Below are positions 22,123-26,370 of a stretch of 64,000 bases of DNA, one piece after another. The translations under genes were made by a program, and so were the position numbers. The DNA lies in assembly GCA_038380435.1 (NCBI GenBank), contig JAWZYU010000025.1, forward strand, positions 26,326,707-26,390,706, given 5' to 3'. This DNA is from Ryuthela nishihirai (Eukaryota > Arthropoda > Arachnida > Araneae > Heptathelidae). The notes beneath the pieces are model-generated. The model ran no database searches and had not been told where the DNA came from. It saw nothing but the letters and a program-made list of their open reading frames with translations. Numbering within the stretch: the first letter of the stretch is position 1; each line of letters begins with the position of its first letter.

Positions 22123-22760
22123 TGTTACGACAGAAGAATCTGGCAACCGAAAGCAAAGTTTCAGCCAACGAATAAGAACTTTGGGAGAATTTGGAGAAGA
22201 AGAGTGGAGCGTTAACGGTCGTTGTGTTGTAACGGTCGTTGTGTTGTAACGGTCGAGGAGTTCGAAAATGGACGGTGAGCTGTTCTGAGACAGTGCGCGT
22301 AAGTATCAAGAAGTAACTTGATGTGTTGTGTATACGCGGAAGGATAAAAGTGGGATCTTTTATCGTTAAGTATCAAGAAGTAACTTGATGTGTTGTGTAT
22401 ACGCGGAAGTATAAAAGTGGGAACTTTTATGGCTAACTTCGAATGTCTACACGGATTGTCTTTTTGTTCGGCTAGTGTGTGAAAAGTTATTAGCACAGGA
22501 CGAGAATTGGTTTACGAGTGAAGATCGTCGGGTGACCTGGTAAATCAAGTAAAAGGTAGTATTTAGTAAAATACACAGAGCTGATGTTGTGTGCTCTACG
22601 CAGGAAGATTGATGATTTGTGCATGTTAGTAGTTGATTGGTTAATAAGATACTTCATCCATATTTCCTTTGTAACAATTTACTTTGTATTGAATTTGGTT
22701 TTGAAATATAGCTTTTAATACTCACGCTCAGTGGCTATCCATTTTTTGTGATCCGCAACA
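22123..22760 (+). repeat. 5' LTR
   Basis: It is bounded by TGTTACGAC and ATCCGCAACA. It contains a 17-bp repeat (AACGGTCGTTGTGTTGT, two copies plus a part) near 22214-22255 and a 67-bp tandem duplication (22301-22367 and 22368-22434). The second 67-bp copy has TATAAAAG (22410-22417), a likely TATA box. Duplicated U3-like segments are typical of LTR enhancers. Confidence 0.93.
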
Positions 22761-22762
22761 TT

Positions 22763-22780
22763 TGGTGTCAGAAGTGGGAT
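22763..22780 (+). other. Primer-binding site (tRNA-Leu)
   Basis: TGGTGTCAGAAGTGGGAT lies 2 bases after the LTR. It is complementary to the CCA-tailed 3' end of a tRNA-Leu. The genomic tRNA-Leu fragment at 134-148 carries the exact complement. Confidence 0.88.
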
Positions 22781-22791
22781 TAATTAATTGA

Positions 22792-24621: not shown

Positions 24622-25310
24622 AGGAGTGTGCGCTTTGGTTTATGATGATGAATACGGAAAAGGAGCTATTGATCTCATCAGTACAGAAGATGTTGCTGTT
24701 GATTTAGTTAAGAAAATGGTTGCAGCATCACAAGCTCGTGGAATGAAGAGTTTGAGTTGTTCAGCTGTTATCAGCAACATGGATTCACCTCTTAAAAACT
24801 CTGTTGACAACTCTCTGGAAGTGATGGAAGCTGTTCAGTGTTTCCTTGGTAACGGATCCTTGGAACTGCAAGAGCTCGTCGAAGAGTTAGGAGGAGAACT
24901 TATGCGTTTGGTGAACATTGTGGATAATAGGGTAGATGAAGCATCACGTGTCTGCAAGGTTCTGCATAACGGCAATGCTTTGAACAAGTTTCGTAACATG
25001 TTAATAGAACAAGGAGTATCTGAAGATGTTGCAAGCTGGCTATGTGAAGGTAAAACAGAAAAAATATTGCTAGCAGCCCGACACATCACTGATTTCATTT
25101 ATACAGGAGAAACAGGTAAGGTTGTCGGATTAGAAGCTGCAGTTCTAGCAAGAGTATGGAAGGAGGAGATGGACCGAAGCGCTAAAAAGAATTATGGAGC
25201 TGATGTTATATTTGTGAAGCACCTTGGGGATCAAATTGAATCAGGTGAAATATGGCTGAAGGTTCATCACGACAGTTCTGAATTAAGTGAAAGTCAACTG
25301 ACAAAAGGGT
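24211..25310 (+). pseudogene. Captured thymidine phosphorylase, intronless, N-terminus missing, one frameshift
   Basis: Thymidine phosphorylase (pyrimidine-nucleoside phosphorylase family; thymidine + phosphate to thymine + deoxyribose-1-phosphate) is recognisable across two frames. Frame 1 holds VDKNSTGGVGNK, VPMISGRALQLTGDT, DKLESIPGF and TATVDSVPL. Frame 2 from about 24591 holds SIVSKKLAEGVCALV, NSLEVMEAVQCFL, LVEELGGELMRL and ESGEIWLKVHHDS. One extra base at about 24585-24590 separates them. The roughly 100 N-terminal residues of the family are absent. No intron is seen, so capture came from mRNA. Key sites are changed: the KHSTGG His is Asn, the signature TGGT is TGDT, the Arg before DVTATVDS is Lys, and the DVK-G loop is DDEYG. 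Enzyme activity is therefore doubtful. Confidence 0.88.
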
Positions 25311-25825
25311 CAGACTGGAGGATGAAACTCCTCCCTAGATTTTATGTCACTAATGACTTTCATTCCTTGTTACTGTTGATAGAAGTAAAAATCCAAAGAA
25401 GAAAACTTTCGACAAAGAAGAAAACTTTTTACAGGTTTTGCACGAAAACTCTTAGTCGATTCTTCTCCCTGCGGAGACATAAACGTGTTCACAAGGGCTA
25501 TAGGCCTTACACGTATTATATTTGTGGACGAGGCTTCAGTCAGAAAAGAAATCTACGTCATAATGAGATTCGCTTTCATTTTGACACAGACGTGGTATAT
25601 CGCATTCGTCGACGTCCAGCTACAAAGTGCAAGGTGGTTCACGTTAATCGTTTGGCTCCGTTTCATCGAAGAACTGAAGAAGCTTTGGAATCCAGAATTG
25701 TTCGGGACGAACAAGACCTAGGAAGGGGGCAGTGTTACGACAGAAGAATCTGGCAACCGAAAGCAAAGTTTCAGCCAACGAATAAGAACTTTGGGAGAAT
25801 TTGGAGAAGAAGAGTGGAGCGTTAA
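24591..25825 (+). CDS. ORF2: phosphorylase C-part, zinc-finger piece, integrase tail
   Basis: This is one open frame, +1 relative to ORF1, without its own ATG near the start (only a GTG at 24602). Order: thymidine phosphorylase to about 25310; a basic linker of about 40 residues, possibly former 3'UTR; a zinc-finger remnant (25433-25579); a Gypsy integrase C-terminal tail with DVVYRIRRRPATKCKVVHVN and RLAPFHRR (25580-25720). It then reads through the polypurine tract into the 3' LTR. Expression would need frameshifting from ORF1 or a separate transcript; no slippery site is evident. Confidence 0.6.
25433..25579 (+). pseudogene. Captured C2H2 zinc-finger fragment (about one and a half fingers)
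   Basis: The frame reads FCTKTLSRFFSLRRHKRVH, then the linker KGYRPY (compare TGEKPY), then YICGRGFSQKRNLRHNE. Both fingers are degenerate. The first cysteine of each is gone, and spacing before the last histidine of finger 2 is off. The unit is unmistakably from a Krueppel-type zinc-finger gene. It lies between phosphorylase and integrase tail, so it is a second transduced host sequence. Confidence 0.75.
25580..25720 (+). pseudogene. C-terminal tail of Gypsy integrase
   Basis: VVYRIRRRPATKCKVVHVN followed by RLAPF is the usual end of Ty3/Gypsy Pol. It is all that remains of pol and explains why the 3' junction with the polypurine tract looks normal. Confidence 0.78.
25720..25732 (+). other. 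Polypurine tract
   Basis: AGGAAGGGGGCAG directly precedes the 3' LTR and would prime plus-strand synthesis. Confidence 0.8.
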
Positions 25826-26370
25826 CGGTCGTTGTGTTGTAACGGTCGTTGTGTTGTAACGGTCGAGGAGTTCGAAAATGGACGGTGAGCTGTTCTGAGA
25901 CAGTGCGCGTAAGTATCAAGAAGTAACTTGATGTGTTGTGTATACGCGGAAGGATAAAAGTGGGATCTTTTATCGTTAAGTATCAAGAAGTAACTTGATG
26001 TGTTGTGTATACGCGGAAGTATAAAAGTGGGAACTTTTATGGCTAACTTCGAATGTCTACACGGACTGTCTTTTTGTTCGGCTAGTGTGTGAAAAGTTAT
26101 TAGCACAGGACGAGAATTGGTTTACGAGTGAAGATCTTCGGGTGACCTGGTAAATCAAGTAAAAGGTAGTATTTAGTAAAATACACAGAGCTGATGTTGT
26201 GTGCTCTACGCAGGAAGATTGATGATTTGTGCATGTTAGTAGTTGATTGGTTAATAAGATACTTCATCCATATTTCCTTTGTAACAATTTACTTTGTATT
26301 GAATTTGGTTTTGAAATATAGCTTTTAATACTCACGCTCAGTGGCTATCCATTTTTTGTGATCCGCAACA
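25733..26370 (+). repeat. 3' LTR
   Basis: Same length and internal repeats as the 5' LTR, offset exactly 3610 bases. Differences were seen only at 26066 and 26137. Confidence 0.93.

Follow-up and report, generated by a model that had tools for sequence, protein, structure and literature searches.

The locus and its family

The window analysed here is a 64,000-nucleotide stretch of the genome of the spider Ryuthela nishihirai (contig JAWZYU010000025.1, positions 26,326,707 to 26,390,706), and at 22123..26370 it holds an element bounded by long terminal repeats (LTRs) that carries pieces resembling thymidine phosphorylase (TP) and a C2H2 zinc finger. All features of this element are on the plus strand and are given in window coordinates. 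Comparison of the LTRs with each other places the 5' LTR at 22123..22760 and the 3' LTR at 25733..26370; each is 638 bp long with TG...CA termini, the pair has 2 mismatches over the 638 positions, and a 4-bp target-site duplication, ATAT, flanks it on the left (22119..22122) and on the right (26371..26374). A primer binding site, which we take to be of the tRNA-Leu type, lies at 22763..22780, and a polypurine tract lies at 25720..25729. The first-pass annotation had read these features as a complete and recent LTR insertion, and the comparison bears this out.

Between the LTRs lie two overlapping open reading frames (ORFs). ORF1 (22792..24621, 609 codons) comprises a Gag-derived coiled-coil N-terminus with variable repeats (22792..23342), a stretch without assignment (23343..24219), and the first half of the TP piece, while ORF2 (24587..25825, 412 codons) comprises the second half of TP, the zinc-finger piece, and the C-terminal tail of a Gypsy integrase (25589..25660; Integrase_p58_C, 28.5 bits against a cut-off of 27), and stops 93 bases into the LTR. 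In this copy, a one-base shift near 24.6 kb breaks the frame of the cargo, the region 23343-25588, which consists of 877 bp of unassigned sequence followed by 1.08 kb of TP and a final 0.29 kb that includes the zinc-finger piece. A Pfam-type domain scan of the element gave no profile match for reverse transcriptase (RT), RNase H, or protease. The element therefore has no protease, RT, RNase H, and integrase core of its own, as an autonomous Ty3/Gypsy element would, and it has the features of a non-autonomous derivative: LTRs, a tRNA primer site, a purine tract, a short target duplication, and a Gag and an integrase tail in common with a Gypsy coding element that was read at both ends (see below).

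The genome, 3.11 Gb in 1680 contigs, was searched for relatives. A 31-mer from TP, allowing up to 3 mismatches, was found at 2,163 places and its reversed control at 0, although such counts depend on the marker chosen. In a search with the LTR, the best 40 of 2358 first-look candidates, when scored, were 98-100% identical to the query, and among these 40 were ten further LTR pairs spanning 2.9-4.5 kb. A protein query with half of TP gave, for the best 150 of 2424 candidates, at least 95% identity throughout and 2 with a stop, a top-ranked and hence biased sample. Both LTRs were present in 17 of the 20 loci fetched; with the window, this makes 18 complete copies. Every one of them has a 4-bp duplication, and the alignments of their LTR pairs contain 16 differences in 11,392 positions, although selection by LTR similarity biases this set towards young copies. 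The flanks of the window element, joined, matched 35 places, of which 29 cross the joint at 67-77% identity and are related empty sites in a dispersed repeat; of the other 6, 2 are the window's own flanks and 4 stop short of the joint. The marker places and the 18 duplications indicate that the chimera probably moves as a unit, and on this evidence the window element is a member of a high-copy chimeric LTR family and not an assembly join. The doubt raised in the first-pass annotation, that the element might be a lone copy produced by such a join, is thus removed, and the further copies with the same LTRs for which it proposed to search proved to be many.

Several other features of the family were seen. 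The number of Gag coiled-coil repeats (window 22900-23210) differs between chimera copies (L010-L029), mostly by multiples of 3 bases. Two fetched stretches, L022 and L023, contain an LTR alone without the interior of the chimera, the latter with a GTAT duplication, and are likely solo LTRs. At G000:C1:30088943-30095827, three TP markers lie exactly 3427 bases apart, as if in tandem elements with common LTRs, and a similar pair of markers lies at C29:51637907 and 51641447. Elsewhere in the window, 34438-35088 encodes an endonuclease domain (PF03372, E 5e-7) from a LINE-like element.

A likely coding partner and the source of the cargo

A profile search of the genome with the integrase tail, in which the best 150 of 5510 candidates were scored, led to elements sharing the ends of the chimera. 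Among the eight tails fetched, L055-L058 match the tail, purine tract, and LTR of the window at 95-98% (the purine tract being identical in L055 and L058), L059 and L060 match in part, and L053 and L054 do not match. The partner frames are open through the integrase for 1697, 1541, 1682, and 1269 aa. In L061, the 5' part of the L055 element, the LTR end and the primer binding site are the same as those of the window, and Gag begins with MPLSRSMDELVKLI. The single frame that follows encodes an aspartic protease and a zinc knuckle, preceded by a weak PNMA match where the capsid would lie. The partner was read at these 5' gag-protease and 3' tail ends, and its coding capacity for RT and the integrase core is judged from the open frames. 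Its zinc-knuckle 31-mer was found at 1,631 places (control 0). The genome also contains a second Gypsy family, at G000:C21:25622916, C22:7641455, and other places, whose open frames are 1820 aa long and whose tail (L053) is unrelated.

Similarity between window and partner ends at 23342 on the 5' side and starts again at 25589 on the 3' side (the junction being 25588/25589), and 23343-25588 matches neither of the partner ends. What the first-pass annotation called a Gag-like start is therefore genuine Gag, homologous to the N-terminus of the partner up to 23342. Relative to the partner, the chimera has lost at least the capsid, the zinc knuckle, and the protease, and has kept only the integrase tail at its 3' side; the comparison thus supports, at the two ends, the earlier proposal that pol was swapped for cargo, and the cargo it described, about 1.1 kb of TP and a C2H2 piece between Gag and the integrase end with neither RT, RNase H, nor protease, is as found here. 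Since the two elements have the LTR and primer site in common, as well as the N-terminus of Gag and the tail of integrase, this Ty3/Gypsy element is likely to be the coding partner of the chimera.

The TP piece (24220..25297) corresponds in a PDB comparison to approximately residues 92-451 of human TP, which ORF1 and ORF2 match with E values of 6e-40 (first half) and 2e-26 (second half). The scores of the two halves are 140.8 and 96.0 bits against human TP, as compared with 107.7 and 41.6 bits against that of E. coli, and in the second half the top-scoring bacterial chain reaches 71.1 bits; in the first half, 72 of 122 residues are identical to human TP. In human numbering, the window copy has the replacements H116N, H150L, G153D, and R202K and retains K115, S117, S217, and K221; the conserved catalytic residues expected of an active TP are therefore not all present. 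Among 32 aligned rows, the position of H116 is occupied by N in 27 and by Y in 4, while 1 has kept H, which is likewise retained in L024. The GHTGGT motif has become QLTGDT or QLKGYT in the aligned copies, and the N-terminal domain of TP is absent from the cargo. Taken at the level of sequence, the TP piece is unlikely to be an enzyme.

The zinc-finger piece (25421..25564) is a decayed C2H2 fragment that matches PDB 5v3g with an E value of 1.7e-15 and whose best Pfam match (E 8e-5) is under its cut-off. The unassigned part of the cargo has no Pfam domain above the cut-off, no match to the gag-protease end of the partner, and, in the domain scan, no pol domain, and its predicted fold, with a pLDDT of 32, is uninformative. 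In protein databases, no homologue was found for the middle of the cargo among 760 candidates, nor for residues 1-480 among 7995 scored. A PANTS-like match in the middle of the cargo (E 0.003) was rejected, since the one PANTS exon located in the genome has no significant similarity to the element; the match is weakened further by its first cysteine, which is present in the window and conserved in 1 of 7 other copies (L011). Against a viral collection, the LTR pattern gave 0 matches, ORF2 none, and ORF1 a single coiled-coil match.

The donor of TP was sought in the same genome. No resident TP gene was found with the profiles PF02885 and PF07831, a motif pattern, or a query with the TP N-terminus, the last of which returned nothing and had no positive control. 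PF02885 matched only a bacterial-type gene, TrpD-like by our own reading, and PF07831 matched two weak places, one an element copy and the other an 805-aa frame. The bacterial-type gene (L050, at and around G000:C16:11097933-11098034) lies in GC-rich, apparently bacterial sequence with a Glycos_trans_3N match within a very long contig and may reflect contamination or transfer. The cargo itself is contiguous coding sequence. As in the maize element Bs1, cellular coding sequence stands between the LTRs, and it was likely acquired by template switching between co-packaged RNAs.

An open frame with drifting residues

The fused frame of the chimera, of about 1,000 codons, remains mostly open, although the residues it encodes change as though under neutral drift. 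This was shown statistically for 784 codons, reaching from the middle of the cargo to the integrase tail, in 48 copies. The set consists of the window, 16 complete copies identified through the similarity of their LTRs, the reference among them, 19 identified through their similarity to TP, and 12 along contig C1 taken from exact TP 31-mer matches. The counts were made on this stable stretch, the coil repeats lying outside it because they misalign. Rows left out were L012, which has an internal deletion, the single LTRs L022 and L023, the truncated L024, and L036, which is the window itself. The non-homologous positions of L069 before 705 were left out as well; when this start of L069 is included, it masks the effect, and the pooled set has 20 stops against 30.3 expected.

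The copies show 358 distinct substitutions, of which 253 are missense, 102 are synonymous, and 3 create stops, as compared with 16.1 stops expected from the same base spectrum (P 9e-5). The deficit is found among the 154 variants present in at least two copies (107 missense, 47 synonymous, and 0 stops against 6.9 expected; P 0.001) and among singletons (3 against 9.1; P 0.02). It is found as well in the TP segment (1 against 6.5; P 0.01), in the C1 set alone (2 against 8.9; P 0.007), and in the LTR-picked set (0 against 9.1). The ratio of nonsynonymous to synonymous change, omega, is 0.95 overall, 1.02 in TP, and 0.80 in the middle segment.

Insertions and deletions follow the same pattern: those shared between copies comprise 7 in-frame and 1 frameshift, as compared with 10 and 15 among singletons (P 0.04). 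The sole shared frameshift, of 19 bp in 5 copies, occurs at a repeat near the 3' end and leads into a second frame that is open to 25721. In the window, 25394-25431 is a 19-bp tandem repeat within the cargo, and the recurrence of the 19-bp deletion in 5 of 48 copies is likely due to slippage. Over the analysed stretch, 31 of the 48 copies (30 of 47 and the reference) are free of stops and frameshifts, 7 of the 12 in the C1 set among them. As a control, the gag-pro region of three partner copies (418 codons) has 21 synonymous and 20 missense substitutions and an omega of 0.44, and its ratio of missense to synonymous changes differs from that of the chimera (Fisher P 0.007).

Interpretation and known systems

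Sequence comparisons lead us to consider the chimera a likely non-autonomous passenger of the Ty3/Gypsy LTR type, in which a cargo of TP and zinc-finger sequence, probably captured from a host, has replaced the capsid, protease, RT, and integrase core, and which is probably copied in trans by the partner with which it shares its LTRs. Its frame has likely been selected for being translatable and not for making an enzyme. The LTR promoter would give a single RNA, which in open copies would be read as a fusion of about 1,000 aa that, like the partner frame, terminates a short way into the LTR; the Gag and Pol of the partner would package, copy, and integrate this RNA in trans. A stop early in the frame would make the 3' untranslated region long and so expose the RNA to nonsense-mediated decay, the simplest reading of why early stops are disfavoured, or would release the RNA from ribosomes before packaging, and the open frame would be selected for one of these reasons; the fusion protein itself is likely not an enzyme. 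In other systems, retroviral full-length RNA is described as a predicted target of nonsense-mediated decay (PMC2925335), and for Ty1 the source proposes that translated mRNA and packaged RNA come from one pool (PMC3945221). A stronger form of this idea, to which we give somewhat less credence and which is put forward tentatively, is that the host coding sequence may serve as pure stop-free filler, with translatability selected, the protein discarded, and the passenger outnumbering its coding element.

One alternative, which we think unlikely, is that the fusion protein serves the element, its Gag coiled coil joining the particles of the partner with the remainder as a tolerated tail, so that the frame is kept for the protein and not for the RNA. 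The Gag N-terminus is indeed in frame with the cargo in open copies, and omega is lower in the middle segment (0.80, or 0.53 in pairwise comparison). However, a stop past the coil would spare the coil, and yet stops downstream of it are depleted, those in TP included, and no constraint on residues was detected in TP. Hitch-hiking alone, in which a small number of open masters would have given a recent burst without any selection on the frame, has a comparably small chance of being correct: it accords with the near-identical LTR pairs, an omega near 1, and the 17 broken copies of 47, but not with stops falling below the substitution-based prediction, mainly in variants shared by two or more copies. 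That the TP cargo is an active enzyme aiding copying, for example via nucleotide pools, might be argued from its identity to human TP in the first half, but the replacement of H116 and R202 in the window copy, the altered GHTGGT in the aligned copies, the missing N-terminal domain, and the omega of TP make this very improbable. Still less credit is due to an assembly join, or a resident gene with LTR flanks by chance, which is refuted by the 2,163 marker places, the duplications in 18 of 18 copies, and the related empty sites, and for which nothing was found in favour.

Several points weigh against selection for translatability in a host-captured passenger. With no donor TP gene found in the searches described above, capture from this host is putative, and the partner is known at two ends only, with which alone the 877 unassigned bp were compared, at the DNA level. 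The sampling is biased, since the 47 copies set against the reference are 15 picked by LTR together with the window, 19 picked by TP, and 12 picked by an exact 31-mer; 17 of these 47 are broken in the analysed stretch, and the singleton frameshifts may include assembly errors. A few residues could be constrained even with an overall omega near 1, and the middle segment stands at 0.80. Pairwise omega on 31 copies is 0.53 (0.31-0.92) in the middle segment and 0.91 in TP, ratios not used for the main claim because frameshifted tails are aligned to each other and the copies are biased. The partner control comprises three copies and 42 substitutions. It contains one 1-base deletion and 1 stop, about 1.4 stops being expected; it therefore lacks power on stops and bears on residues only.

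LTR elements without pol that depend on a partner include TRIM, LARD, and TR-GAG, whose coding sequence is, so far as is known, absent or Gag only; the chimera resembles them in its likely reliance on a partner and differs in having a long fused frame with host-type sequence. A literature search for TP together with (LTR) retrotransposons, judged by title, gave nothing related. The capture of host genes by LTR elements is itself already established, in the accounts cited here, by Bs1, crocodilian endogenous retroviruses (ERVs), and LTR-mediated retroposition. Bs1 is described as an LTR element holding several host-gene segments in a chimeric reading frame (PMC13317346), like the chimera, which differs from that description in its host, in carrying TP and C2H2 pieces, in having a marker that occurs at 2,163 places, and in sharing the genome with a likely coding partner. 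CrocERV29 with KIT-ligand and CrocERV31 with nectin3 are likewise reported as host mRNAs captured by LTR elements and spread in an animal genome; in that report, nectin3 replaces env, KIT-ligand is added without domain loss, and the captured frames are under purifying selection (PMC4299795), whereas in the chimera Gag-Pol sequence is replaced and the residues drift. The route that is likely here, a switch of template from the RNA of the element to a host mRNA or back, was proposed by Tan et al. for metazoan LTR-mediated retroposition, as presented in a review (PMC5408686). The review regards the process as one that gives rise to gene retrocopies; here, the chimera itself is the high-copy family.

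If this reading is true, the chimera would be a natural experiment that separates two reasons for keeping a frame open, namely the protein and the act of being translated. The two families, whose markers occur at 2,163 places (chimera) and 1,631 places (partner), a rough ratio since the markers differ, would allow direct tests of copying in trans. They would likewise permit tests of how retrotransposon RNA is policed by decay surveillance and of the ways in which host genes enter LTR elements in the host lineage.
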